Origin: Paraburkholderia sp. Tr-20389
GTDB taxonomy: Bacteria; Pseudomonadota; Gammaproteobacteria; Burkholderiales; Burkholderiaceae
DNA length: 64,000 nucleotides
Direction of reading: 5' to 3'
Assembly: GCF_017104565.1 (NCBI RefSeq)
Contig: NZ_JAAGPD010000028.1
Span: 62,001-126,000 of the forward strand
The notes beneath the pieces are model-generated. The model saw only the letters and a program-made list of their open reading frames with translations, was not told the origin of the DNA and did not search any database. The position numbers and the translations under genes are program-made. How positions within the stretch are numbered: position 1 is the stretch's first letter; each line of letters begins with the position of its first letter. Below are positions 13,401 to 38,920 of the stretch, one piece after another.

Positions 13401-13922
13401 TATCCGAAACAGACGGCCGACTACTATGCCCACCTGCATTCGTACAGCGACACTTCCGCACTGCCTACGGCTGCGTTCCTGTATGGCCTGCAACCGCAAG
13501 AAGAAGTTGGCATCGATATCGACGCCGGAAAAACGCTGCTTGTGTCGCTGCAGGGACATCACAAAGATGTCGACGAAGGGGTGGTGAAGGTCCAGTTCGA
13601 ACTGAACGGTCAGTCGCGCACGGCCGTCATCGAGCAACGTAATGCTGCGCAGACGGGGCCAACACGTAAGAGCCGCCCGATCGCCAACCCGGAAAATCGT
13701 TTGCATGTCGCCGCACCGATGCCGGGCCTGATCGTAACCGTGCCGGTTCAACCGGGGCAGCGCGTGTCGGCGGGCAGTACGCTCATCGCACTGGAGGCGA
13801 TGAAGATGGAGACGCATATCGCCGCAGAGCGCGACTGTGAGATCGCCAGCGTGCATGTGCAGCCGGGTGAACGCGTTGCAGCAAAGGACCTGTTGATCGA
13901 ATTGAAAACGCCAGCAGAATGA
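10410..13922 (+). CDS. pyc: pyruvate carboxylase
   Basis: 1170-residue cytoplasmic biotin enzyme converting pyruvate, bicarbonate and ATP to oxaloacetate (anaplerosis). Biotin carboxylase domain at ~8-460 with ATP-grasp loop KASWGGGGRGMRV and FYFIEVNPRIQVEHTVTE. Carboxyltransferase domain from ~545 with LTDTTMRDAHQSLFATRM and metal-site GLPVHFHTHDTSG. Biotinyl domain at the C-terminus with ALEAMKMETHI (biotinylated lysine near residue 1131). All three domains are on one chain, as in alpha-type Pyc. Start at ATG 10410 (MNQSPIRSLLIANRSEIAIR); a GTG at 10401 is possible. Flanked by relics on both sides. Confidence 0.95.
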   Translation: MNQSPIRSLLIANRSEIAIRVLRAAAEMDIRTVAIYSKEDRLALHRFKADESYLVGEEKKPLAAYLDIDDILRIARLAKVDAIHPGYGFLSENPDFAQAVIDAGIRWIGPSPKVMRMLGNKVAARNVAISAGVPVMPASPPLPRELDECKRLAVEIGYPLMLKASWGGGGRGMRVLESELELESAIVGARREALAAFGSDEVYLEKLVRNARHVEVQVLGDTHGNLVHLYERDCTVQRRNQKVVERAPAPYLDDGARAVLCESALRLVRAVGYTHAGTIEFLMDADSGEFYFIEVNPRIQVEHTVTEVITGVDIVKAQIRVTEGGAIGLVDDVLDQDGVVEQRAAGVPAQAEIPLNGHALQCRITTEDPENGFLPDYGRLTAYRAASGFGVRLDAGTAYSGAVITPYYDSLLVKVTTWAPTAAESIRRMDRALREFRIRGVASNLQFLENVINHPAFARGELTTRFIDLTPELLAFAKRRDRASKLLRYLGEVCVNGHPEMKGRSLPTLPLPQPVQPKLAAVGTIPAGTRDRLKELGAEGFTRWMLDEKRVLLTDTTMRDAHQSLFATRMRTADMLPIAPFYAGGLSELFSMECWGGATFDVALRFLKEDPWQRLAQLRERVPNILFQMLLRGSNAVGYTNYADNVVRFFVQQAADAGVDVFRVFDSLNWVSNMRVAIDAVRESGALCEGAICYTGDLFDASRSKYNLKYYVGIARELQRAGVHILAIKDMAGICRPHAAAALVKAFKEETGLPVHFHTHDTSGISAASALAAINAGCDAVDGALDAMSGLTSQPNLSSIAAALAGTERDPGLSLERLHEASTYWEGVRRYYAPFESEIKAGTADVYRHEMPGGQYTNLREQARSLGIEHRWTEVSRAYADINRAFGDIVKVTPTSKVVGDMALMMVANDLSAADVCDPAKEIAFPESVVSLFKGELGFPPDGFPAELSRKVLRGDPPVPYRPGDQLPAVDLEAARAQGAVACEQPLDDRQLASYLMYPKQTADYYAHLHSYSDTSALPTAAFLYGLQPQEEVGIDIDAGKTLLVSLQGHHKDVDEGVVKVQFELNGQSRTAVIEQRNAAQTGPTRKSRPIANPENRLHVAAPMPGLIVTVPVQPGQRVSAGSTLIALEAMKMETHIAAERDCEIASVHVQPGERVAAKDLLIELKTPAE

Positions 13923-14155
13923 AGCCGGACATTCGTTGAACGCCGATTTGCAGAGGCTTGACGCCCTCCCCGCCCTCAGCCTGCGGCTGCCGCGCATGGC
14001 GCGGAAAGGACGGGGATTCCTTCTGCAAGACGGCGACGTCCCGCCGCGAGAATGTTCACTGCCGCATTGACGCCGCACTGGTGATACGCGCCACATTCGA
14101 GACAGGCTCAATCCCTTATTCCAAGACCTTCCCGGCCCTTCGGGCCAGTGCGCCT
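13923..14155 (-). pseudogene. tnpB: tnpB (IS200/IS605-type) C-terminal relic
   Basis: On the minus strand from the IS3 end the reading PKGREGLGIRD, a stop, then ACLECGAYHQCGVNAAVNIL and AAGRRRLAEGIPVLS ends at a stop at 13976-13978. This is the RuvC/zinc-ribbon end of TnpB (CxxC, then xVNAAxNIL). A TGA replaces the tryptophan normally after GIRE, and the second ribbon cysteine pair is reduced. Only the last ~60 codons remain; the rest is cut off at the IS3 left end. The ~50 bp below the stop, next to pyc, corresponds to the element's 3' end, where a guide RNA is made in live elements. Confidence 0.7.
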
Positions 14156-14216
14156 AGAGGTGGCGCCGCTTGTTCGGACAGGGTTCCGAGATTTTTAAGT
14201 GGAATTGTTGGGGGAA

Positions 14217-15047
14217 TCAAGCTGCCGATTTTATCGCTGGCAGCGTGGCGAAGCATGCTTCATCCGGCGTCTGATCGGCTAGCCTCGAATGAGGTCGATT
14301 CTGGTTATACCAGTTCAGGTAATTGCCGATTGATCGACGCGCGTGACCTACCGAGTCGTACGCTTTCAAATAAACCTCTTCATATTTGACGCTGCGCCAC
14401 ACCTGTTCGACGAACACGTTGTCACGCCAGGCACCTTTTCCGTCCATCGACAGGAGAACCTTCCGGCCGAGAACCGCGTCGGTGAATTCGGCTGCAGTGA
14501 ACTGGCTTCCTTGATCCGTGTAGACGATCTCAGGCAGCCCGTATTTCGCAAATGCTTCCTCCAGCGCCTCGACAGCATGGCAGCTCTCCAGCGTGGTCGC
14601 CACCCGGTGCGCCAACACCCGGCGGCTCGCCCAGTCCACGACGGCCGTCAGATAGACGAAGCCCCGCGCCATCGGGATATAGCTCGTATCGAGCGCCCAG
14701 ACCTGATTGGCCCGATCGATTTTCCGGTTGCGCAGCAGGTACGGCCAGATCCTGTGGGCTGCATGCTTGCGGCTCGTATTTGGCTTGCGATACAACGCCT
14801 CGACGCCCATGCGCTTCATCAAGGTGCCGACGTGCCTGCGTCCGACTGAGATACCTTCGCGACGCAGTGGACGTGCCAACATTCGCGCCCCGGCAAATGG
14901 ATGCTCGAGGGGAAGCTCGTCAATCCGGCGCATCAATTTCAGATCCGCTTCGCTGACCCCACGCGGCTGATAATAGGCACTCGAGCGGCTTATGCCTAAC
15001 AGCCGGACCTGCTGCGCCACCAGCAGGGCGTGATCACGATCGATCAT
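14217..15047 (-). CDS. IS3-family transposase OrfB (DDE catalytic part)
   Basis: 276-residue rve-type integrase core. The catalytic residues are visible: D in VWALDTSYIPM, D in VYTDQGSQF and E in FVEQVWRSVKYEEVY, followed by the HxxYNxxRPH-like YNQNRPHS. The ATG overlaps the orfA stop by 4 nt. The active form is expected to be the OrfAB fusion made by -1 frameshifting at 15089-15095. Confidence 0.93.
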   Translation of the reverse strand: MIDRDHALLVAQQVRLLGISRSSAYYQPRGVSEADLKLMRRIDELPLEHPFAGARMLARPLRREGISVGRRHVGTLMKRMGVEALYRKPNTSRKHAAHRIWPYLLRNRKIDRANQVWALDTSYIPMARGFVYLTAVVDWASRRVLAHRVATTLESCHAVEALEEAFAKYGLPEIVYTDQGSQFTAAEFTDAVLGRKVLLSMDGKGAWRDNVFVEQVWRSVKYEEVYLKAYDSVGHARRSIGNYLNWYNQNRPHSRLADQTPDEACFATLPAIKSAA

Positions 15048-26567: not shown

Positions 26568-26785
26568 GCCACCGCTGCCGTTGGCCAGGATGCACGGCGA
26601 TCGTCGGCAATGACCTGTGGGGCTGCAAACCTCACTGGCGTGCGCTGCCCGACAGCCTGCGAGCATGGATAGGTCGCTCGTATCGCTACGGCATGGATAC
26701 CGATACGCACCCCACCGCCAGCTACGTTCGCGCACATCGTGCGGCGATCGCTTTTGCCAGGGAGGTCGAACGTGGACGCCATTGA
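26564..26785 (+). CDS. small Cys/His-containing phage protein
   Basis: 73 residues starting MSHRCRWPGCTAIVGNDLWG. The pattern CRWPGC ... WGCKPHW suggests a zinc site. Its ATG overlaps the previous stop by 4 nt and it overlaps the antiterminator gene. Similar small proteins sit just upstream of Q-type genes in other prophages. Confidence 0.65.
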   Translation: MSHRCRWPGCTAIVGNDLWGCKPHWRALPDSLRAWIGRSYRYGMDTDTHPTASYVRAHRAAIAFAREVERGRH

Positions 26786-27170
26786 TCGCCTGCTGCTCGA
26801 CTGGCACGAGTGGAACCTCGGATGGGAACTCGTTCCCGGCTATCCGCGTGATGCTGGCCTTGGGGGCTTCCAGAGCAGCAGGCAATGGATGGACCTTGAC
26901 GACCTCAACGATGAAGTCGATCGGCGTATCATCGAAGGCCACGCCCGCGTGATCGATCCACTCGTGCTCGCGCTCGATGAGCGCCTGCGCGTCGCCGTCA
27001 ACATTGCCATGCTCAACCTTGCTGCCGGTGTTGAGGTATGTCGCAACCCGCGCTGGCCAGCAACGCAGGATGCCGACTATCAGCGCGCGAAAGAGGTGCT
27101 CGAACCGCAGTTGATCCAGCGTGGCCTTCTTGATCCGGGTATATACGACATACAACATCCGGTCCGTTAG
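26772..27170 (+). CDS. probable late antiterminator (Q-like)
   Basis: 132 residues from GTG 26772 with GGAGG 6 nt upstream. Helical layout with RQWMDLDDLNDEVDRRI and RLRVAVNIAMLNLAAGVEV, then a C-terminal LVQRGLLD-like QLIQRGLLDPG. This resembles phage Q-type antiterminators that act on RNA polymerase at the late promoter. It is the last gene of the rightward early operon, the expected place. In lambda the late promoter follows directly; here 7.7 kb including foreign cargo separates it from the packaging genes. Confidence 0.55.
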   Translation: MDAIDRLLLDWHEWNLGWELVPGYPRDAGLGGFQSSRQWMDLDDLNDEVDRRIIEGHARVIDPLVLALDERLRVAVNIAMLNLAAGVEVCRNPRWPATQDADYQRAKEVLEPQLIQRGLLDPGIYDIQHPVR

Positions 27171-27187: not shown

Positions 27188-29371
27188 CTAGCCAGCAGAC
27201 CACGCGTCGTCGAGATAGAACCCATCTGGATCTTTGCCTTCTCTGATCCGTTGCATGCCTTTTAGATATCGATTGATCGCAGCCCGTTGACGAACAGTCA
27301 GGTCGTTTCGGGCTTGCAGGGAGAGAATTCGAGGCTCAATTTCCTCCAGGTTCATCACCGCACCTAGCGTCGCCATCGAAAGATGGTAGGTTTCAGAGAA
27401 CTTCTTCCCCGTCTGACTCGATCCCGTCCTTAGGAACTTTTCGAGCAGGAGTAACAAACGATCGTCATCGACTGCAGGTTGGAAAATAGCTCGCATTCGA
27501 TCGGGATCTCCCCATACCTTCCATCGATCAACGAGGTGATCCAACTCGCCCATAGACAACAGTTCTTCGAGAGAAGCTTGATTGAGTCTCGATCCGAGTT
27601 TGGCCGCAAGAGATTCCGGAAAGCCTTCCTCGAGATCAAGCAAACCCTTTGGCGCCTTTGCTGGATCTTTTTTTGCGTCTAGTGCTAGGTCAGCAAGAAA
27701 CACGAGTCCCGTTAGGGCTGGCGACTGTTCCGCGAGACTCATTAACAACTTCTGTCGATCTGACGATTCAATTCGCTCCAGCAGCGCGGTTATCAAAAAG
27801 ATGATTCGCCAACGATTCGGAAACGTAAGAAAGCCGCGCTCGTCGTCTCGACGTAGCAAGACGTCCGATACAGAGATGAGGGCAGTGATCAACTTGGATG
27901 CTTGCGCTGCATCGAGGTCGTCAAAATCATGGAGACGATCGATTAGATCTCGAGCCTTCGAATGGCCGTCAGGAAAGATAAAATCTTTCGAGTCTCGTAG
28001 CAAAGCAGCCATCTCTTCCGAAGTATCACTGTTCACAAGACGTTCCAGTTCGGCTCGCGTGACATGTCCCTGTGGGACGCCAAACTGAAAATACACGTCG
28101 AAGCATTCAGGACTGCACGGTCGAAGCTCTTTTCTCCACTCTTCTTCTCGTCCTCCTGACGATGTCCAAGAATCACGAAGTATTTGGTTTACTTTGGGAA
28201 ATAGCCTGCCCACCAACGACACGACCCTCTCCCTTTTTTCTTCGGGCAAAGACTGCTTCCATTTCTCGAAGCTCTTCTTCTCCGCATCCTTCCGATAATC
28301 GACGTTCGTCGGACGCCCGCAAAAGAATTCTTTACCATCTCGAATACTTGCATAAGCCGAGGGTTCAAATAAACGCAGAAACTCCAGCGCGATCAGATCT
28401 ACAGGATTAACCTCACCAGCGAGCGGCGGGTACACAACCGAAATCGCGTTTAGGACACGGACGATATCCCTAGGCTTCTCGATGCATCTGTCGAGCCCGT
28501 TGGAAAACACCTCTACCCAGCGGCTCTGATCAAATGGAAACGGCATAGGTCGCGATTCGAGAATCGCGTCGAGACCCTTGAACAGTTTGAGCTGCAATCT
28601 ACCTTTGTCGACAGCGGGCAAATGAAATGGGGCTTGGATGATTTTTTCAAGGTACGCTTCACCGTTCATTTTCAGCGAGGAGCTTAATGCGTCGGCGACC
28701 TCATCGCGATCGAAGAAAAGAACATAGACGACCTCTGGAAAATCGGCCAGTGCCTTGATCGCGCGGAACAGATCTCTTGCCTCGTCCGGTGTGAGTCGAT
28801 CAATGTCATCTACAAAAAAAACAAAGCGCTTGCCGCTTGCCTTCAAAGCGGCAGCGACTTTCTTTTTTACCTGCGGCACGCCCGTCTTTTCGGTCAAAAA
28901 CTTCAGTCCTGGAATTTTTCCAAGCGCCCACGACAAGGGACCTTTTATCCATGACGTCCCGGAGTAATCTGCGGCAACCGAAGCGATCTGCTTGGAGTAC
29001 GTCGCGACAAGTTTGGCAAGCGTACGAACATGCTTCAGTCTGTCCGGTAACTGCGCGGAGAACTGCTCAAGAAGCTGCGTGGCAATCTGCTCCCGACCTT
29101 CGAACCACCAAGGGTTGAAATCTATCAAGATTGGCCGAGCGCTCTCCGGCAACTCTTTAAGGTCATGCTTGATAAAGTTCATGAGGCTAGACTTTCCACT
29201 GCCCCACTTCCCATGAACGGCTAGAACTAACCCTTGCGGATTGCTGTTTTCGACTATGGCCTTACCGAGCTGGGAAGCGAACGGCGCGTACCCAAATTCA
29301 TCACTTGCGGGGTCAATTAGCGGCAGATCCGATCCCAAGTCCCAGTTGTTTGTGGCGGTCGCTTCAACCAT
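27188..29371 (-). CDS. KAP-family P-loop NTPase, predicted defence protein
   Basis: 727 residues. Start at ATG 29371 (MVEATATNNWDLGSDLPLID) with AAGGA 9 nt upstream; a GTG at 29404 is weaker. Walker A AVHGKWGSGKSSLMNF at ~52-67, an insert of ~100 residues with a hydrophobic stretch (WIKGPLSWALGKIPGLKFL), then Walker B FVFFVDDIDRLTPDEARDLF and sensor region FDRDEVADALSSS. This is KAP architecture (STAND-related NTPases, several in phage defence). The long helical C-terminal half may be a sensor. Convergent with the late antiterminator and lower in GC than its neighbours. Confidence 0.85.
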   Translation of the reverse strand: MVEATATNNWDLGSDLPLIDPASDEFGYAPFASQLGKAIVENSNPQGLVLAVHGKWGSGKSSLMNFIKHDLKELPESARPILIDFNPWWFEGREQIATQLLEQFSAQLPDRLKHVRTLAKLVATYSKQIASVAADYSGTSWIKGPLSWALGKIPGLKFLTEKTGVPQVKKKVAAALKASGKRFVFFVDDIDRLTPDEARDLFRAIKALADFPEVVYVLFFDRDEVADALSSSLKMNGEAYLEKIIQAPFHLPAVDKGRLQLKLFKGLDAILESRPMPFPFDQSRWVEVFSNGLDRCIEKPRDIVRVLNAISVVYPPLAGEVNPVDLIALEFLRLFEPSAYASIRDGKEFFCGRPTNVDYRKDAEKKSFEKWKQSLPEEKRERVVSLVGRLFPKVNQILRDSWTSSGGREEEWRKELRPCSPECFDVYFQFGVPQGHVTRAELERLVNSDTSEEMAALLRDSKDFIFPDGHSKARDLIDRLHDFDDLDAAQASKLITALISVSDVLLRRDDERGFLTFPNRWRIIFLITALLERIESSDRQKLLMSLAEQSPALTGLVFLADLALDAKKDPAKAPKGLLDLEEGFPESLAAKLGSRLNQASLEELLSMGELDHLVDRWKVWGDPDRMRAIFQPAVDDDRLLLLLEKFLRTGSSQTGKKFSETYHLSMATLGAVMNLEEIEPRILSLQARNDLTVRQRAAINRYLKGMQRIREGKDPDGFYLDDAWSAG

Positions 29372-29587
29372 CAAAGCACATCCTTTTAGTTGACTTATGT
29401 TCACTCAGGTGGCCGCGGTCGTGGGCCACAAACGGCATCCCGGTGTCGTAGCCGCCAATATCTTCAAGTTTTCGTACGCTCGGCCATCATCGACACCGCC
29501 CATAACATCCGCGCGCGAACTAGTTGTACAGCGATCGCTGTCAAATAAGCCAATCAGCGCGCGGAGGCTGGACGTACAAGGTTGCCT

Positions 29588-30925
29588 CTACGAACTGACA
29601 GAACTACTGCCCTCTGCGCCCTTTTTGTGACGCAGCTTTCTGAAGAGTTCTGCAAAATCAATCTCTTCGCAAGACTCACGAGCTATCCTCAAATCTTCCA
29701 ACTCTTGCGCATAAACGCCGCGGAAATCGCTCAGCAGATCACCTTGTCCTAAAACGGAAAGCGCGCGCTCAACGAGGTCGGGCCGATCAGAGACGCGCCT
29801 TGCTAGATAATCGGGTGCTCGTTCGAGATCGAACTGAATAGCAGCATCCTCGTCGGTCGGTCGAGGTATCAAGAATGACTCGAACTGCTCCGGATAGACG
29901 GTAGGCGAACCGACCTGCAAGAGCCCAAAGACTGCTGAACGTTCCTCGAGATCCAGGGACGCCAAGGCGCCCTGAGATCCGGTCGAGGCGCTATGCAGGC
30001 GCACAAAGGTGTCCCGCTTTAGAGCGTCGATCGGGATAGACTTGCCGATAAAGCGGGCGAGTGCTCTTTTTTCCTGAATGATGTCGCAAGCTTTTTGAAA
30101 GTCCCTGGACAAAAGTTGGTAGGAGCTGCGAATATTCGTTCTGGCCTCATCAAACGAAGGACTTCCCCATTGATCGCGAGGCGGCAACAGCTTTGCGATC
30201 TCCACAAGCTGATCGCGATTCAGCTTGCTTGTAAAGCTGCCCATAGAATATTCAACGACCAGAGCGTTGAGGCGCAGCTGTAGCTCCTCAAGTAGTGCGC
30301 ACACTTCTGCGTATCCTTCCGCGAAGTACTGGAGATTTATATGAGATGTACCGCTTAAATGAGCACTTGAATCTTCGGCATTCGACGCATACCTGAATGT
30401 TTGTCCAGATCTGTCAATTTGATCTATATCAATGACGTACGGCTTTAGGTTTTTCACGAGTACACTAAGCCTCGGATCTGCGGTTTTTTCGCAGATTGCG
30501 TCGAGGTTCGACCATACGTCAAGTACGCTATGCGTGAGTTCGTTTTGACGCGGCTCTGATAGGCCGTGCGAGTCGTTCGGCGATCGCATCTTGAAGATTC
30601 TCCAAGCCCGTGGAACGGCTCGCTTCAGTGCCAGTTCTACATGATGTCGGGCGGAATAGCAGATCGGATAGACGAGAGTATCGATTAGCAGGTCTGATCC
30701 CCAATTCTCGTCAGCTGCGGCTGGTTTATCCACGTTCAAGAGCCTCAGCATCAATTCGGCAGCAGCCTTAAACCCTTCGGCGTATCCATATGAGTTATCT
30801 GAAGACCCAGTGTTGCTGCCAACGCATGCGTTGAGATGCCAGTTGTCACCAGGGCTCATATAGCCTTTGATCAATTTGTTGCTTATGTTCGTGCTAACGG
30901 ACGATGTGCTCGAAGTGTTGTCCAT
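29588..30925 (-). CDS. HEPN-like protein paired with KAP NTPase
   Basis: 445 residues from ATG 30925 (MDNTSSTSS); earlier in-frame starts lack a ribosome site. The N-terminal ~200 residues contain YPICYSARHHVELALKRAVP, then HGLSEPRQNELTHSVLDVW. That is the 'RHxxELxLK ... HxLxxLW' pattern of HEPN-like helical domains, some of which are toxic RNases. The rest is helical with no recognised motif. It lies upstream of the KAP gene on the same strand (216 bp apart), so the two may work together. Nuclease activity is inference. Confidence 0.5.
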   Translation of the reverse strand: MDNTSSTSSVSTNISNKLIKGYMSPGDNWHLNACVGSNTGSSDNSYGYAEGFKAAAELMLRLLNVDKPAAADENWGSDLLIDTLVYPICYSARHHVELALKRAVPRAWRIFKMRSPNDSHGLSEPRQNELTHSVLDVWSNLDAICEKTADPRLSVLVKNLKPYVIDIDQIDRSGQTFRYASNAEDSSAHLSGTSHINLQYFAEGYAEVCALLEELQLRLNALVVEYSMGSFTSKLNRDQLVEIAKLLPPRDQWGSPSFDEARTNIRSSYQLLSRDFQKACDIIQEKRALARFIGKSIPIDALKRDTFVRLHSASTGSQGALASLDLEERSAVFGLLQVGSPTVYPEQFESFLIPRPTDEDAAIQFDLERAPDYLARRVSDRPDLVERALSVLGQGDLLSDFRGVYAQELEDLRIARESCEEIDFAELFRKLRHKKGAEGSSSVSS

Positions 30926-31095
30926 ATCTATATATCCAGGCATGAAAGCATTGTGGTGAATAACACAGGGAAAGACGACGCTTTCCCGCACGTTTTTTTC
31001 GACTACCGGATTGTAGCTATTTCGCCACTACAACTCAGTGCAGTGATGCAAGCACTGGCGACCCACGAAACGGGTTGTGCTTCCTCGATTTTTGT

Positions 31096-31175
31096 GCTCT
31101 ATCGTCCTCGATGACGTCTCGCTCGTCCGCAAAACTCGACGGCCCGCTCAGGTAACTGCTGCGCCTTTCACTTCC
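31096..31175 (+). repeat. late promoter-terminator module, degenerate copy A
   Basis: TGACGTCTCGCTCGTCCGC and CGGCCCGCTCAGGTAACTG match the leader of modules B and C, but the hairpin arm and the -10 are decayed. It lies between the defence pair and the lipoprotein gene. Confidence 0.55.
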
Positions 31176-31451
31176 CTCCCCGCAGCCGCAACCGACTCGG
31201 CGTCACTGTCATGTGACTGCCCAGCGCCACACACAGTCCGGATACGGGGAAAGGGTTTGGATCTCTCCTTAGCAGTTCGATGACGCGACTCAATGCTTTG
31301 TTGGTCACCCCACACAACAAGCGCGTGAAACTTGTCAAAACCGCTGAACGCGTATATCGACTGGAATAGCAAACAGCATTCGAGGCGATCGCTGTTAAGG
31401 CGCTCAGATCCCGAGTGCGCACATACCAAGTCAATAACGACGGAACCCGCC

Positions 31452-32690
31452 ATGATGAGAATTGCTTTGGCTGCGCCGATTGTCGTACTTTTACACGCCT
31501 GTACATCCACCGATCCTGGTAGCGCAGCAGGAATCGATTATCATTTCCCAAGGACCGATGTCAAAGTCACACTCGGCGTCGATGTGACCCAATGCGACCC
31601 GAAGGTCGAAGTCGAACTATCGCTTAAGGCTGATGCCGTGGCGAGCGCTGACACAACATCGAGGCACCGCATCGATGGTGCTCAATTATTGTCTAGCGTG
31701 ACAAAGCGCGGGCTCACCATCGATGTCGATGACAACGGCGTCATCTCATCCGTCAACATGACGGCGACGGATCAGGGTACGGTCATCTTAGGCAGCGCGG
31801 TCAAATTGATTAGTACGGTGGTCGGTGGGGTCACGTTATTCGATCTAAATACTGGCAACGTGAAATTCACGTGCAAGACAGATACACGTAGTGCCCTGCA
31901 ACAGCTCCAACATGCGAAGCGGGAGCTCGCTGATGTCAAACAAGCTTCGTTGACTAGCGGAAAGGGACAGTCGGCCATCGACACACAGAAGAAGATCAAT
32001 GCTCTTGCTTCAATGATTGCTAGCCTGAAGGAGGCGCTTCACCGCGACTTGACTGCTACCGTTGACCCAAAGGTCGTCGCCGACAAAGGAACCTATGATG
32101 TTCCGTTCGGCTTCAAACCACTCGATGAACTACTCGACCCTGAGCCAATGAATAACATGGCCGCCATCCTGAATGATACGGATGCGCAAACGGAAGTCGC
32201 TCATAGCTTCGGCATAGAGGCAAGCCTCGCTAGTCCACCCGCATCGATCACCGATAGCACGATAGCAGGAAATTGCGATCAATCAATTTGGATGCCCGAC
32301 GCTGTTCCCGTGACCATGAAGTTCACTTCGTCGATGAAGGATCGGAAAGTCGAGAAGGAGGTTTCGGTTGACCTTTATGCCAGCCAGCTATCGCCGAAAG
32401 GCCGTCCGCTTTGCATCTCCGCTGGCTTCGGCGAGAACCGGGTCGTCGGTCTAAAGTTAGATAAGTTCGGCAGAGTCACAGAATTCACATGGACTTCAGA
32501 CGCGCGAGCTGCCAACGTCGCCGCGGCGTTCGCCGGCGCCGCACCGGATGCGACAAGCGCATATAAATCCATCCGCGACGCGGGCATTAGTAAGGACAAG
32601 GCAGAACTGGACAAGCTGACGACGGAACAAGCGCTGCGCAAGGCAAGACAATGCCAAGCAATTCTTGATGCGGGTGGAACATCGTGTTAG
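31452..32690 (+). CDS. predicted lipoprotein (cargo gene)
   Basis: 412 residues. The signal peptide MMRIALAAPIVVLLHACTST has a lipobox LHAC, so the mature protein should be lipid-anchored at the outer or inner membrane. No conserved domain recognised. A helical segment (LQQLQHAKRELADVKQ ... INALASMIASLKEAL) lies at ~150-200, with mostly beta pattern elsewhere, ending CQAILDAGGTSC. Placed between promoter-terminator modules A and B in late orientation. Possible lysogenic-conversion or superinfection-exclusion factor; not shown. Confidence 0.7.
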   Translation: MMRIALAAPIVVLLHACTSTDPGSAAGIDYHFPRTDVKVTLGVDVTQCDPKVEVELSLKADAVASADTTSRHRIDGAQLLSSVTKRGLTIDVDDNGVISSVNMTATDQGTVILGSAVKLISTVVGGVTLFDLNTGNVKFTCKTDTRSALQQLQHAKRELADVKQASLTSGKGQSAIDTQKKINALASMIASLKEALHRDLTATVDPKVVADKGTYDVPFGFKPLDELLDPEPMNNMAAILNDTDAQTEVAHSFGIEASLASPPASITDSTIAGNCDQSIWMPDAVPVTMKFTSSMKDRKVEKEVSVDLYASQLSPKGRPLCISAGFGENRVVGLKLDKFGRVTEFTWTSDARAANVAAAFAGAAPDATSAYKSIRDAGISKDKAELDKLTTEQALRKARQCQAILDAGGTSC

Positions 32691-32713: not shown

Positions 32714-32740
32714 TTGCGTTTTTCAGCATTCTGGTATTGA
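32714..32740 (+). promoter_or_regulatory. predicted late promoter, module B
   Basis: TTGCGT at 32714-32719, 15-bp spacer, extended -10 TGG-TATTGA ending 32740. The same layout occurs in module C. Placed 40 nt before the terminator of the same module. Confidence 0.4.
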
Positions 32741-32780
32741 ATCCATCTAGAGGACGTTTCGCTCGTCCAAAGGATTCAAG

Positions 32781-32817
32781 AGGCTCGGTCAGGTAACTGT
32801 CCGGGCCTTTTGTTTTT
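32781..32817 (+). terminator. intrinsic terminator, module B
   Basis: AGGCTCGG (32781-32788) pairs with CCGGGCCT (32801-32808) with one G-U, followed by TTTGTTTTT. Same position as in module C. Confidence 0.7.
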
Positions 32818-32852
32818 GCATCTCGCCGCGCCCTACTACCCGATCGTAGACC

Positions 32853-33147
32853 ATGTCCGCACCTACGCCTCGCACGGTCGGGAGCAGGTGGAGGGTTATC
32901 CGTGCACGTCAGCTTCGGCACCATCGCTCTGCGCAGAGTGTGCCTGCGTCATAGTCACGTCACCGAGGCAACCGAAGTGGATCACATCATCCGGCTTGAG
33001 GAAGGCGGCACCGACGCCGACGCGAACCTCCAGTCGCTTTGCCACGACTGCCACGCACGCAAGACCGCAAAGGAAAACGGCACGCGTCCTCGCGGCTGCG
33101 ACGTCAATGGCACGCCCACCGACCCGGAGCATCCGTGGTCACGGTGA
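32853..33147 (+). pseudogene. HNH endonuclease, frameshifted copy
   Basis: Starts MSAPTPRTVGSRWRVIRARQ like the intact copy at 34905. A single C is missing near 32924 (CACCATCGC versus CACCATCCGC), which throws the frame into a stop. The rest reads on in the other frame with the full HNH core (ATEVDHIIRLEEGG, LQSLCHDCHARK). A restart at 32902 could yield a truncated protein. Confidence 0.85.
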
Positions 33148-33685
33148 CGCCCTCGCCCCCTCGCCCGCTCCTCGCCGGGGACGCGTCTCAGGGAGGATTG
33201 TGTAAATTATTCGCAACGCTTCGCTTCACCCCACCATCACCTTGCAAGTCGTTGGGTCGCGATTCATAGACACGCCTCGATTCAACATCTAAATTCAGAA
33301 ATATGTCGCGAAGTAGATTTCCGGTTTGCAGTCGAACTCCGGCCTAGGAAACAGGCTGAATGCGTCCCGAGCGGGCGTCATTTGGATTGGATTCGTAACC
33401 GGGTGCATATTTGACACTTCCCTGATGCCCATGACACCCGCAGATCCATCACGTCGGCTTAGCATCAAACCCGCACCAGTAGCGCGTCGATTCTAAAGCA
33501 ACGTGTGTCACGTGCTTTTTCAAAAAAAGTGAGACCTAGCGGAACATTCAATACGAACCTCATTTGAACATCTGTCAACCGGACAATTGTGATTTACTTT
33601 CCAGAATGTGCACGCCTGCTCTTCGAACCATCTTCTACGCTCAAAGACGCCGAACCACAATCTTCTGACAAAAACGGGCCTAAAC
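33148..33685. other. intergenic between broken HNH and membrane gene
   Basis: About 540 bp. The first ~95 bp belong to direct repeat B; the rest is unique, lower in GC, with no gene seen. It may carry the promoter of the membrane-protein gene. Confidence 0.5.
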
Positions 33686-34492
33686 ATGAAAGTCGCAAAC
33701 ATCTCGACATTTCGCCGGCGAACGAGGAAGCCCGACCAATCATCGGAACCCGCCGAGGTGGACTTCTCCCTAGCAATTCAGAAACTAAGGATCCGCGCAA
33801 AACATTCCCGCAGGAGTCTCAGCGTTGTTGCTTTCATCGTGACAATGGTGATCACGTTTTCTGCAAGCTTTATCTTCCTTCGGCTGACGCATGCGAGTGC
33901 AAGCGAAGAGATGGAAAAAGCCCAACTGAATATGGAAGCCGCCATGTACCGCTACCAAGAAAAAGAAGAGCCTCTCTCGCCGCGCTTGCTCATTCTCCCG
34001 CGCATCGAATCTCTGCTTCATCAGATTTACCCCGAGCCGATTCTAAAGTACGATCGTGCGGGAAAAATCGTTTCGAACACTCCAAGCCCCTTGCTTCCAC
34101 CGCAGGACGCGAACGCGCGCGTGAACGATATAAACCAGCTCGTGACAATCTACGAAAAGCTGCAGAAGGCTAGTCCAGCCGATAAGCGGGAGACGTCGGA
34201 AAAGGACTATGCGCCTGTGATCGCGACGATAGCCTTTTCGGCCGGCGCCGTGGCATTCGTCATTCTCGCAATCCAGATTTCCGTGATGTTCATGCGCTAC
34301 TACGCTCAACTGGCCGAATTGTACGAAGCTCAAGCGGTCGCCCTCGAAGCATCGGGCGGCAACGTCCAGACTGCAATTAAGTTTATGGAAAGCTTTTCGC
34401 CGAATACGATACAGCTCGGCAGAGCACCAATAACTCTTTTCGAGAAATCTCTTGAAGCGGTAACGGAAGTAGCGAAATCAAAAGCCAAGTAG
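33686..34492 (+). CDS. two-TM membrane protein (cargo gene)
   Basis: 268 residues starting MKVANISTFRRRTRKPDQSS. TM1 at ~44-67 (SVVAFIVTMVITFSASFIF), an extra-membrane domain of ~110 residues with a coiled region (SEEMEKAQLNMEAAMYRYQE), TM2 at ~178-202 (FSAGAVAFVILAIQISVMF), and a C-terminal cytoplasmic segment. No family recognised. Framed by the two ~500-bp direct repeats, so it is an inserted cassette. Possible exclusion or defence function. Confidence 0.65.
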   Translation: MKVANISTFRRRTRKPDQSSEPAEVDFSLAIQKLRIRAKHSRRSLSVVAFIVTMVITFSASFIFLRLTHASASEEMEKAQLNMEAAMYRYQEKEEPLSPRLLILPRIESLLHQIYPEPILKYDRAGKIVSNTPSPLLPPQDANARVNDINQLVTIYEKLQKASPADKRETSEKDYAPVIATIAFSAGAVAFVILAIQISVMFMRYYAQLAELYEAQAVALEASGGNVQTAIKFMESFSPNTIQLGRAPITLFEKSLEAVTEVAKSKAK

Positions 34493-34764: not shown

Positions 34765-34791
34765 TTGCATTTTCAGTTTTTTTGGTATTCA
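34765..34791 (+). promoter_or_regulatory. predicted late promoter, module C
   Basis: TTGCAT at 34765-34770, 15-bp spacer, extended -10 TGG-TATTCA ending 34791, followed 40 nt later by an intrinsic terminator. A promoter closely followed by a terminator is the Q-dependent late arrangement of lambdoid phages. Confidence 0.45.
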
Positions 34792-34830
34792 ATCGTTTCC
34801 GAGGACATTTCGCTCGTCCGCAGAAATCGT

Positions 34831-34868
34831 AAGGCCCGGTCAGATAACTGCCCGGGCCTTTTGTTTTT
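34831..34868 (+). terminator. intrinsic terminator, module C
   Basis: Perfect 9-bp stem AAGGCCCGG / CCGGGCCTT (34831-34839, 34852-34860) followed by TTGTTTTT. It precedes all head genes, so late expression would need antitermination. Confidence 0.8.
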
Positions 34869-34904
34869 ACGTCTAGCCGCGCACTACTATCCGATCGCCA
34901 AGCT

Positions 34905-35198
34905 ATGTCCTTACCCACGCCTCGCACTGTCGGAAGCCGGTGGAGGGCCATCCGCGCGCGCCAGCTTCGACACCATCCGCTCTGCGCAGAGTGTCTGCGG
35001 CTCGGTCACATCACCGAAGCCACCGAGGTCGATCACATTCTCCGGCTGGAAGAAGGCGGCACCGACGCCGATGCCAATCTGCAAAGCCTTTGCCATGACT
35101 GTCACGCGCGCAAGACTGCGAAGGAGAATGGCGCGCGTCCTCGCGGCTGCGACGCTAATGGCATGCCCATCGATCCGGAGCACCCGTGGTCACGCTGA
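34905..35198 (+). CDS. HNH endonuclease (packaging-associated)
   Basis: 97 residues. HNH core: CAEC, VDHILRLEEGGTDADANLQS, then LCHDCHARKTAKE, with the H of VDH as general base and Cys pairs for structural zinc. Small HNH proteins of this type adjoin terminase genes in HK97-like phages and assist DNA cleavage during packaging. The intact partner of the broken copy at 32853. Confidence 0.88.
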   Translation: MSLPTPRTVGSRWRAIRARQLRHHPLCAECLRLGHITEATEVDHILRLEEGGTDADANLQSLCHDCHARKTAKENGARPRGCDANGMPIDPEHPWSR

Positions 35199-35399
35199 CG
35201 CACTTGCCGCCGCAGGTGCCCACTCGCCGGGGATGGCCTCGGGGGGGATTGTGTGAGTTTTTGGCAACACTTCCCGTCACCCCGTGGCCTCCTTTTTTTT
35301 CAGAAATCCACATCTCCGTTCGGGGGTCGTCACAGGCCGGCAACGGGCCACGCGGGTCCACGTACCGGCGCACGTGCCAACACAGACGGGAGGTCGGCT

Positions 35400-36821
35400 A
35401 TGTGGGCTGACGTAATTGAGCAGCGGCCTGTGGCGGCGCTGAACGCCTACGCGAAGAACGCGCGCACGCACTCCGAGGCGCAGCTCACGCAGCTTTGCGA
35501 ATCGATGCGGGAGTGGGGGTTCACGATCCCGGTTCTCGTCACGGAGGAAGGGACGATCATCGCCGGTCACGGCCGGGTCGAGGCGGCGAAGCGGCTCGGT
35601 TACGAGGCGGTGCCGGTGATCGTTGCGCGCGGTTGGACCGCGCAGCAGATTCGCGCCTACGTGCTCGCGGACAACCGTCTAGCGGAGTACGCTGGGTGGG
35701 ACGACGCGCTGCTGCTCTCCGAACTTGAAGCCCTCACGCTCGACGGTTTCACGATCGGGCTGGCTGGCTTTTCCGACTCCGACATGGACCGGCTTTTGCG
35801 CGGCACGCGCGGCCAGGACGACGAGGACGATATACCTGAGGCCCCGTCGAACCCGGTCACGGTCGAGGGCGACGTGTGGTTCCTCGGCGGGCACCGACTC
35901 GTTTGTGGCGACTCGACCAATGCCGACGTGGCGAAATCGGCACTCGCCGGCGTGCGCCCCTCACTGATGATCACCGACCCGCCCTATGGCGTCGACTATG
36001 ACGCCGACTGGCGAAATCGGGTCGTGATGGTCGAAGGCGAACGACGCGGCGCGCACGGCTCCCGCTCCACCGGCAAGGTGCTCAATGACACCCGCGCCGA
36101 CTGGCGCGAGGCATGGGCACACTTTTCGGGCGACGTCGCCTACGTGTGGCACGCGGGCATCTACGCTGACACCGTCGCTGCCTCGCTGCGCGCGTGCGGC
36201 TTCGATATTCGTGCGCAGATCATCTGGGGAAAGCCCCGTTTCGTCGTCTCGCGCGGGCACTACCACTGGCAGCACGAGCCCTGCTGGTACGCAGTGCGCG
36301 AAGGCAAGACGGCTGGCTGGACGGGTGATCGCTCGCAATCGACGCTCTGGCAGATCGATCACCGCCGCAGCGAGTCGGGTCACTCGACGCAAAAACCTGT
36401 CGAGGCCATGCGCCGGCCGATCGAAAACCATACCTCTCCCGGGCAGGCCGTCTATGAGCCCTTCTCCGGGTCAGGCACGACAATCGTTGCCGCCGAATCT
36501 GTGGGCCGCACGTGCCACGCCATTGAATTGAATCCCGCCTACTGCGACGTGGCGATCCTGCGCTGGCAGGCCGCGACGCCACAGCAGGCAGTCCGTGAGC
36601 GCGACGGACTCACTTTCGCGCAGGCCGCAGAGGCCGCAGGCATCGAGGTCAGCAATGGCAAGGACACGACCACCGCTTCCCACGGAACTGAAGCTGGTGC
36701 AAGGGACGCTGCGCCCGTCCCGAGCAAACAGGCGGGAAGCAAAGCCGCAAAAGGCGATGCCAACAACGCCCGCGCATCTCGGCGAGATCGCAAAAACCGA
36801 GTGGAAGCGCATGGCACGTGA
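35400..36821 (+). CDS. ParB-domain / DNA adenine methyltransferase fusion
   Basis: 473 residues, start MWADVIEQRPVAALNAY with GGGAGG 7 nt upstream. The ParB-N domain at ~1-110 (NARTHSEAQLTQLCESMREW, GHGRVEAAKRLGYEAVPV) is joined to an N4/N6 DNA methyltransferase at ~150-430 with catalytic DPPYGVDYD and SAM-site PFSGSGTTIVAAE. Such fusions are common beside phage terminases and may protect phage DNA from restriction. The C-terminal ~56 codons overlap the small-terminase gene in another frame. Confidence 0.9.
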   Translation: MWADVIEQRPVAALNAYAKNARTHSEAQLTQLCESMREWGFTIPVLVTEEGTIIAGHGRVEAAKRLGYEAVPVIVARGWTAQQIRAYVLADNRLAEYAGWDDALLLSELEALTLDGFTIGLAGFSDSDMDRLLRGTRGQDDEDDIPEAPSNPVTVEGDVWFLGGHRLVCGDSTNADVAKSALAGVRPSLMITDPPYGVDYDADWRNRVVMVEGERRGAHGSRSTGKVLNDTRADWREAWAHFSGDVAYVWHAGIYADTVAASLRACGFDIRAQIIWGKPRFVVSRGHYHWQHEPCWYAVREGKTAGWTGDRSQSTLWQIDHRRSESGHSTQKPVEAMRRPIENHTSPGQAVYEPFSGSGTTIVAAESVGRTCHAIELNPAYCDVAILRWQAATPQQAVRERDGLTFAQAAEAAGIEVSNGKDTTTASHGTEAGARDAAPVPSKQAGSKAAKGDANNARASRRDRKNRVEAHGT

Positions 36822-37149
36822 GCTCTTCGATCTCGGGCTGCTCACACGCGTGGATCGCGCCGCGCTCGCTGCCTACTGTATGGCCTACGAGCGGTGGGTG
36901 CTGGCCGAGCAGGCGCTCGCGAGGATGGCAGCGCGCGACCTGCTCACCGGTGGCCTGATGATCAAGACCACCAACGGCAACGCGATCCAGAACCCGCTGG
37001 TCGGCACCGCGAACAAGGCGATGCTGGTGATGGTTCGCATTGCCACCGAGTTCGGCATGACGCCCGCCGCACGCGCCAGCATCGAGGCGGGTGTGCCCGG
37101 AGACGGTGATGGCAAGCAAGGCGACGTCCGCCAGAAGTACGGCTTCTGA
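36655..37149 (+). CDS. phage terminase small subunit (P27 family)
   Basis: 164 residues starting MARTRPPLPTELKLVQGTLR, the usual P27 N-terminus, GAGG upstream. Core: PAHLGEIAKTEWKRMARELF, LLTRVDRAALAAYCMAYERW. It recognises the packaging site and recruits the large subunit. The first 167 nt overlap the methyltransferase gene, and the last 41 nt overlap the large subunit. Confidence 0.88.
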   Translation: MARTRPPLPTELKLVQGTLRPSRANRREAKPQKAMPTTPAHLGEIAKTEWKRMARELFDLGLLTRVDRAALAAYCMAYERWVLAEQALARMAARDLLTGGLMIKTTNGNAIQNPLVGTANKAMLVMVRIATEFGMTPAARASIEAGVPGDGDGKQGDVRQKYGF

Positions 37150-38920
37150 TCCGGCGACGCAGTACGCGCGCGCCGTGGTCGAAGGCCGGATCGTCGCTGG
37201 CCCCGACGTGCGCAATGCCTGCAAGCGCCACCTCGACGACCTCGCGAGTTGCGCCGCGCGTGGATTCACATGGCATCCCGAAGTCGCGCAGCGCGTCATC
37301 GACTTCTTCCCCGATGTGCTCTTCCTGAACGGCGGCGACTTTGAAGGCGAGCCGTTCCACCTGCTCGACTGGCAGAAGTTCATCGTCGGTTCGTTGTTCG
37401 GCTGGCTGCGCGCGGACGGCTCGCGCCGCTTCCGCGAGTCATATGTCGAAGGCGGCAAGGGCTGCGGGAAATCGCCGCTCGCGGCAGGTATCGGGCTTTA
37501 CATGATGCTCGCCGATGGCGAGCAGCGTGCCGAGGTCTATGCAGCGGCGACGCGCCGCGATCAGGCAATGATCCTGTTCCGCGACGCCGTGGCGATGGTG
37601 CAGCTTTCTCCGAAACTGCGCGAGGCCACGTCCACGCAGGGCCGCGACGATCGCGTGTGGAACATCGGCCATCGGAGGAGCGGATCGTTCTTTCGTCCGA
37701 TCGCAAGCGACGAGTCCGGGCAGAGCGGCCCGCGTCCTCACTGCGGCCTGATCGACGAAATCCACGAGCACCGCAACGGGACCGTCATCAACATCATGCG
37801 CGCAGGCAAGAAGGGGCGCCGCCAACCGCTGATCTTCATGATCACGAACTCGGGTTTCGATCGCACCTCGGTCTGCTATGAGCAGCACGAGTACGCGATC
37901 CGCGTCGCGGGTGGTGCGCTGGACGACGACAGCTTCTTCGCCTTTGTGTGCTCGCTCGACGAGGCTGATGATCCCTTCGACAACGAGGTTTGCTGGATCA
38001 AGGCCAACCCCTCGCTCGGCCAAACGATCAAACCGGACTATCTTCGCGCCCTGGTGCATCAGGCGCGCGGCATGCCTTCGCTCGCATCGACCGTGAGGCG
38101 CCTCAACTTCTGCCAGTGGGTCGACGCCGAAGATCCGTGGATCGAAGGGCCGCTCTGGTTCGCCTGCGAGGTGGGTCGCCCGCCCGAGTCGGGCGACGTG
38201 CTGCGCGGCGAGACCGATGCGCACGTCCTCATGGCCCGGGCCGAGGCTGCGCGCCGTGACATGCGCCTCGCGTTCAAGGGAAAGAAGGTCTCCGGTGGCC
38301 TCGACCTCTCGGGTACGCAGGATTTGACCGCTGCCGCGTTCGTGACGGTCAACGAGGACGAGACGGTCGACGCCTTCGTCGACTTCTGGACTCCCGGTGA
38401 AACCATGATCGAGCGCGGCAACCGCGACAAGGTCGGATACGACGCTTGGGACCGCACGGGCTTCATCCATGCCACCGATGGACGATCGGTCGCCTATCGC
38501 GAGGTCGCACGCGGCCTTGCCTCGCTCGATGCCGAGATGGAGATCGAAGGCATCGCCTGCGACCCGTATCGCATGAAGGACTTCGAACGCGAATGCGATG
38601 CCGAGGGCATAACGCTGCCGTTCGTGACCCACGGACAAGGCTTCGGACGCTCGTCCGAGTCGGGCCTGTGGATGCCGCGCTCGATCGAACTGGTCGAGCA
38701 GCTCATCTTCGAGGGCAGGCTGCGCGTGGTGTTCAACCCATGTCTGCGCTGGAACGTGTCGAACGCTGTCGTCGAGGCTGACGCAAAAGAAAACCGCATC
38801 TTCCGCAAACGCAAGGCGATCGGACGTATCGACGGCCTCGTCGCTCTCACGATGGCAGTGGGCCTCGCACTCAACAGGAGCGCCGAGCGCGAACCCGAAT
38901 ACCAGATGTATTTCCTCTGA
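37109..38920 (+). CDS. phage terminase large subunit
   Basis: 603 residues. ATPase domain with Walker A VEGGKGCGKSPLAAG, Walker B-like CGLIDEIHEH and coupling region FMITNSGFDRTSVCYEQH. The C-terminal RNase H-type nuclease has acidic residues in SGGLDLSGTQDLTAAAF and IACDPYRMKDF. Terminase_1-type family that packages DNA into HK97-like heads. Start ATG 37109 with GGAG upstream. Confidence 0.93.
   Translation: MASKATSARSTASDPATQYARAVVEGRIVAGPDVRNACKRHLDDLASCAARGFTWHPEVAQRVIDFFPDVLFLNGGDFEGEPFHLLDWQKFIVGSLFGWLRADGSRRFRESYVEGGKGCGKSPLAAGIGLYMMLADGEQRAEVYAAATRRDQAMILFRDAVAMVQLSPKLREATSTQGRDDRVWNIGHRRSGSFFRPIASDESGQSGPRPHCGLIDEIHEHRNGTVINIMRAGKKGRRQPLIFMITNSGFDRTSVCYEQHEYAIRVAGGALDDDSFFAFVCSLDEADDPFDNEVCWIKANPSLGQTIKPDYLRALVHQARGMPSLASTVRRLNFCQWVDAEDPWIEGPLWFACEVGRPPESGDVLRGETDAHVLMARAEAARRDMRLAFKGKKVSGGLDLSGTQDLTAAAFVTVNEDETVDAFVDFWTPGETMIERGNRDKVGYDAWDRTGFIHATDGRSVAYREVARGLASLDAEMEIEGIACDPYRMKDFERECDAEGITLPFVTHGQGFGRSSESGLWMPRSIELVEQLIFEGRLRVVFNPCLRWNVSNAVVEADAKENRIFRKRKAIGRIDGLVALTMAVGLALNRSAEREPEYQMYFL

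Follow-up and report, generated by a model that had tools for sequence, protein, structure and literature searches.

Two antisense genes in a variable prophage slot of Paraburkholderia sp. Tr-20389, a HEPN-like gene and a PifA-like KAP gene, as candidate separate anti-phage cargo

PifA of the F plasmid, a KAP nucleoside triphosphatase (NTPase) that excludes phage T7, is an abortive-infection system for which earlier work suggested membrane depolarisation, and the sensitivity of T7 to it depends on Gp1.2, as stated in the available text of PMC8594841. Nearly all HEPN families conserve the Rx4-6H motif, strictly or in part, and many the acidic residue of E-x3-[KR], according to the available text of PMC3710099, where AbiV is described as typically devoid of the motif histidine and as having another conserved histidine in an insert that separates helix 2 from helix 3; the inactive HEPN domains are expected there to be those that have none of these residues. 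Tab, a prophage defence gene on the minus strand, has a promoter of its own and is located between terminase genes (PMC10884400, available text). Here, we describe two minus-strand genes of a prophage of Paraburkholderia sp. Tr-20389, one encoding a PifA-like KAP P-loop NTPase and the other a HEPN-like protein of 445 amino acids. They lie within a stretch of 64,000 nucleotides (hereafter the window), which is part of contig 22 of the 9.0-Mb genome (Table 1).

The explanation that we favour, and hold to be fairly likely, is that the two genes are separate pieces of anti-phage cargo in a prophage slot, the HEPN-like protein being a single-factor defence and the KAP protein a PifA-like one; each probably acts against viruses in its own right. 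An earlier, sequence-only reading of the locus had taken them for a defence pair. The two minus-strand open reading frames (ORFs) that it described are present (translation from the ATG at 30925 gives the 445 amino acids), and both are open over their full length in the window. A working two-part system in this prophage, with the KAP NTPase as sensor and the HEPN protein as effector, would agree with the arrangement of the genes (both on one strand, the HEPN-like gene leading, 216 nt apart), and phage defence commonly uses an NTPase paired with an effector. Profiles of both families were built from loci collected in this analysis, and the KAP profile (E≤1e-3) was searched against the ORFs of 101 further HEPN-like loci (10 from plasmids, 67 from genomes, 22 viral and 2 from the search of the order), of which 71 extend 3 kb or more to each side; the plasmid sample represents 10 of the 267 plasmid records with a HEPN-like match. 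No KAP gene was found within 3 kb of the HEPN-like gene in any of these 101 loci, the nearest being 3.5 kb (L002) and 8.3 kb (L095) away. Conversely, the HEPN-like profile had no match among the KAP loci, of which 15 were viral, 5 came from plasmids and 13 from genomes; the genome loci had short flanks, and 8 of them were refetched with longer ones. The closest HEPN-like relatives of the window protein (L019 and L001, 42–45% identity) also have no KAP match in their stretches. Since the locus sets include nearly identical contigs, some of the counts are not independent of one another. The conserved co-occurrence on which the pair proposal had staked itself was not found, and a conserved KAP-HEPN two-gene system is rejected on 0/101 HEPN-like loci (within 3 kb) and 0/15 viral KAP loci; with no KAP match in the stretches of the closest relatives either, we consider a two-part system confined to this prophage quite unlikely. 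That the two genes lie side by side most likely reflects convenience and no partnership. A search of the open-access literature aimed at a HEPN-KAP pairing found no paper on it by title.

The AlphaFold2 model of the 445-amino-acid protein (predicted local distance difference test 86.5, predicted template modelling score 0.81) comprises an N-terminal HEPN-like domain at approximately residues 30–230, followed by an all-helical C-terminal part. When the isolated domain was compared with known structures, 11 of the first 14 rows were titled HEPN or HEPN-toxin, and the other three (1ufb, 1ylm and 2q00) are entries which we take to be HEPN as well; with the full-length model, rows 1–4 were toxin-antitoxin entries with HepT. 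Foldseek run without a second aligner gave no match at E≤0.001. In the model, the protein has the HEPN helical fold, and this call is based on the predicted fold and on conservation, not on a motif alone. The fold suggested by the sequence-only reading was borne out by the predicted structure. Of the two patterns from which it had been read, RHxxELxLK fits the protein (RHHVELALK), and HxLxxLW was misread, the actual sequence being HSVLDVW (H132 to W138).

None of the four family libraries recognised the protein (Pfam gave nothing at E≤1), and it had no match among the PDB sequences. When 66 family members were compared with Pfam, 55 families were matched, weakly and in a scattered manner, with neither HEPN nor AbiV among the 25 of these families that were listed. 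Single-protein searches of viral_contigs found neither the KAP nor the HEPN-like family, and matches came once alignments were used as the query; neither gene had a tblastn match in 50,697 phage records. Plasmids as well as prophages of differing types carry the HEPN-like family. Two HEPN-like profile matches per locus, as tandem or split copies, were observed in L011, L065 and L076.

Conservation was read from 102 aligned sequences, the window protein included. R178 is present in 102/102, D171 and E97 in 101/102 each, H132 in 100/102, K101 in 99/102, and W138 and H189 in 95/102 each. In the model, E97-x3-K101, an E-x3-[KR] motif, lies within helix 78–114, and H132 is placed between this helix and helix 134–148. 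The spacing between R178 and H189 is 9 residues in 92 sequences and 10 in 3. Rx4-6H, by comparison, was found at any single position of the aligned region 30–230 in at most 8/102 sequences, with 48/102 having one somewhere. Because the motif is unconserved at every position, the assignment of the HEPN domain as a ribonuclease effector, made in the sequence-only reading, is weakened, and this weighs against our explanation too. What survives of the assignment is an alternative site (E-x3-K, H132, R178 and H189) in place of Rx4-6H, which is plausible as judged from the alignment and in which R178 may be the HEPN motif arginine; the near-invariance of the polar residues (E97, K101, H132, D171, R178 and H189) favours a working site.

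The unconserved Rx4-6H would also suit an explanation that we regard as unlikely, namely that the HEPN-like protein is a non-catalytic controller of a mobile element (of lysogeny, integration or exclusion of related elements) and not a ribonuclease. Single-domain family forms of about 200 amino acids lie on plasmids directly before a gene annotated as a tyrosine recombinase or integrase (L012, 4923–6529; L013, 4974–6432), and the gene cluster that includes these recombinase/integrase genes occurs within 8 kb in 8 loci. Against a controller of this kind, charged and polar residues are very strongly conserved, and PMC3710099, as far as its available text goes, expects inactive HEPN domains to be those without such residues; a family carried both on plasmids and by unlike prophage types also speaks against it.

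Compared with described HEPN proteins, the window protein shares with AbiV, a lactococcal abortive-infection protein of 201 amino acids (PMC3231927, available text), the status of a single protein, and the shorter family forms match AbiV in size. An alternative histidine before helix 3 and the want of the canonical motif histidine may be a further likeness, AbiV being so described in the available text of PMC3710099. It differs from AbiV in having no Pfam HEPN match and in its extra C-terminal helical part. From HepT of the MntA-HepT toxin-antitoxin system the family differs in that Rx4HxY, the motif given in the available text of PMC7641770, is not conserved. Tha of a Staphylococcus aureus prophage is likewise a prophage-borne single-protein HEPN defence, but its canonical R265-H270 is located in a C-terminal HEPN domain, whereas the HEPN-like domain of the window protein is N-terminal (PMC11087260 for Tha, available text).

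The second gene was correctly identified as a KAP P-loop NTPase by the sequence-only reading. It matches Pfam PF07693 (KAP_NTPase) with E 3.5e-48 and 164.8 bits (cut-off 20) over residues 39–326 of 738, and both the Walker A (GKWGSGKSS) and Walker B (FFVDDIDRL) motifs are present in the translation. The PADLOC PifA model, which has no curated cut-off, matches nearly the full length of the protein (E 2.5e-105, 351.7 bits, residues 23–706 of 738, model positions 5–708 of 720). A match this strong to KAP lies far outside what chance would give. The defence role that we propose for the gene follows from this relationship to PifA. The NTPase encoded beside pifC on pKPN5 shares 24% identity with the window KAP protein over 740 columns; the window gene differs from pifA in being prophage-borne and in having neighbours other than pifC. 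A QatA identity was rejected (66.4 bits against the NCBIfam cut-off of 600), and a single weak match (E 0.3) was found among PDB sequences. KAP NTPases typically, although not universally, have a transmembrane insert that separates Walker A from Walker B. As judged by hydropathy, the window protein has no strongly membrane-spanning segment (best 19-residue value 1.36), and KAP relatives in L017, L018, L111, L112 and L115 reach 1.76–2.47. Relatives at E≤1e-20 are present in 14 of the 399 genomes of the order, with the genome of Tr-20389 counted; 1038 plasmid records had KAP matches at E≤1e-10, a number that also includes distant KAP proteins, and the 15 viral loci came from the alignment-based search. 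In L176 (1103–7163), a KAP gene and three more minus-strand genes stand in a row, two of them with P-loop-like starts by eye; this row is possibly a larger conflict system.

The prophage location and antisense orientation of the two genes were confirmed, and the place they occupy is a variable cargo slot between an early gene and the late operon of HNH and terminase genes. RusA-like and replication-initiation genes are located upstream of it, and the HNH, ParB-methyltransferase and terminase genes of the late region, recognised with PHROGs, come after it from 34905 on. The sequence-only reading picked out the correct genes and the correct type of location, but the interruption extends beyond the two genes: G+C content is 0.48–0.59 in each 500-base step of the 27.0–35.0 kb stretch, in surroundings of mostly 0.59–0.67, and two genes on the plus strand, together with an intergenic element in three copies, lie there as well. 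Low G+C (0.53) is also found outside the slot, at 22.0–23.0 kb. The gene at the upstream edge (26772–27170) had been called a late antiterminator, which is a positional label only. It has no match in Pfam or PHROG at E≤1 (one PHROG of unknown function appears at E 1.2), and 15 homologues of it match five undescribed PHROGs with one member each (E 0.022–0.058) and not the Q family phrog_79. Homologues occur in 11 of 96 genomes searched, again with that of Tr-20389 counted. Four more are present in the same genome (on C57, C9, C51 and C35), which points to several related prophages or remnants there.

In L162 the HNH gene comes right after the slot-marking gene, with just a hairpin and T-run (by eye) in between, so that the slot is free of cargo, and in L142 and L161, whose late genes are 88% identical to those of the window, the slot holds a single different minus-strand gene (13548–14234 and 548–1234, respectively). 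The 228-amino-acid product of this gene has no match in Pfam or PADLOC and only a weak one to a PHROG of unknown function (E 0.062). Compared with L162, the 7.7 kb present here in the window is therefore an addition to a variable slot. The intergenic element, present between the cargo genes at 31089, 32714 and 34765, is followed twice by an HNH copy; these repeats look like a duplicated late control region and suggest stepwise growth of the slot through duplication.

Between the HEPN-like and KAP genes, a palindrome (approximately 29524–29545), the pattern of which fits both strands with zero mismatch, is a possible operator. With up to two mismatches, the pattern gave 5 matches versus 3.4 expected, so only the palindrome spot itself is notable; a half-site with one mismatch was seen at 31385. 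The DNA of the upstream flank has no match among phage records, and that of the downstream flank matches 30 of them with 60–80% identity, the 20 listed near the terminase region.

Table 1 Features of the prophage slot and its flanks (window coordinates).
Feature	Position	Strand	Details
Conserved small phage gene, upstream edge of the slot	26772..27170	+	In the place of a late antiterminator
PifA-like KAP P-loop NTPase gene	27188..29371	-	727 aa from ATG 29371; 738 aa from GTG 29404
Intergenic gap, KAP to HEPN-like gene	29372..29587		216 nt, with KAP counted from ATG; holds a near-perfect palindrome
HEPN-like gene	29588..30925	-	ORF; 445 aa from ATG 30925; GTG start gives 29588-30991
R1, copy of the intergenic element	31089..31138		Repeat family D3
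Second cargo gene	31452..32690	+	Within ORF 31332-32690; lipoprotein-signal-like N-terminus (by eye)
R2 and shortened HNH endonuclease copy	32714..33232	+	Repeats D1-D5; HNH phrog_2323 E 2.9e-20 (32902-33147)
Third cargo gene	33608..34492	+	phrog_2611 (unknown function) E 6.5e-8; two hydrophobic segments, hydropathy 2.57 and 2.52
R3 and full HNH endonuclease gene	34765..35198	+	Repeats D2 and D3, inverted repeat I8; hairpin before T-run; whole repeat copy 34765-35283
Full HNH endonuclease gene after R3	34905..35198	+	phrog_2323 E 3.3e-30
ParB/DNA methyltransferase, terminase small and large subunits	35331..38920	+	phrog_498, phrog_83, phrog_9

Comparable places were found in other prophages. 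In 9 loci (L031, L086, L088–L092, L096 and L102, several of them nearly identical) a HEPN-like gene, without KAP, lies 68–93 nt from an opposite-strand gene that is antitermination-Q-like; the Q-like assignment comes from gene clustering, with the PHROGs match checked in L096 (E 5.6e-28). The gene on the far side clusters with the terminase large subunit in 7 of the 9 (checked in L102). In the P2-like prophages L093, L097, L103 and L105, an antisense HEPN-like gene is placed between relatives of P2 S and V and/or W, with extra small ORFs in the S-V slot of L093 and L097, and in L186 this slot is occupied by a KAP gene. In P2 itself the same place holds the nonessential antisense orf30; the P2 hotspot of PMC9122126 (available text) lies between A and Q, not S and V. 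Among the 22 viral HEPN-like loci, orientation is mostly, although not always, opposite to that of the neighbours. Tab (PMC10884400, available text) and P2 orf30 are likewise antisense accessory genes in a defined late-region slot, and the protein families of the Tab and P2 accessory genes differ from those of the window; P2 Fun(Z), Orf30, Tin and Old were rejected as kin of either family (at most 3.7 bits).

The cargo could instead serve another host role, such as stress or fitness, and leave phages unaffected. Such a role would be in keeping with the neighbouring cargo genes 31452–32690 and 33608–34492, which have no PADLOC match at E≤0.01 (the former also has no Pfam match above cut-off), and with a comparison of defence genes around the HEPN-like loci that was not decisive: it covered 134 of the 185 near genes, which gave 196 PADLOC families (25 listed), and 122 of the 161 far genes, which gave 122 (25 listed), these being 140 rows of each list less 6 near rows (L065 and L076) and 18 far rows (L054, L065, L070, L071, L072, L074, L078 and L080). 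Ten proteins, taken from the window cargo and from slots and flanking regions in relatives, gave a single, weak PADLOC match (E 4e-4) at E≤0.01. Set against this, the KAP gene is related to PifA and the slot behaves like known prophage defence cargo, so we regard a role of this kind as very improbable. For the HEPN-like gene, it is the predicted fold and the behaviour of the slot that lead us to propose defence.

If the two genes are indeed separate anti-phage cargo, their position on the opposite strand would permit expression of both in the lysogen. Upon infection, the HEPN domain of the 445-amino-acid protein would be released and act on RNA through a putative site formed by E97 and K101 (helix 2), H132, R178 and perhaps H189 in place of Rx4-6H, and the helical C-terminal half would sense or restrain. 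The 727-amino-acid KAP protein, being PifA-like, may recognise a phage product and stop the growth of the infected cell. More tentatively, the 445-amino-acid protein may be the founding member of a HEPN defence family that has no name as yet and a non-canonical site (E-x3-K, H132, R178 and H189), a single-gene cargo traded by plasmids and unlike temperate phages via fixed antisense slots in which PifA-like KAP genes can replace it.

What is new here is the HEPN-like family with its unusual conserved residues, not the combination of KAP and HEPN. The family is now a defined candidate, with a clear residue set and another 101 loci, drawn from genomes, plasmids and viral contigs. The two antisense slots (between Q and terminase, and between S and V of P2-like prophages) are places in which to seek prophage defence genes, with the caution that two genes side by side in one of them may not work together. 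If the protein is active, HEPN proteins can work without Rx4-6H, as was proposed for AbiV in the available text of PMC3710099.

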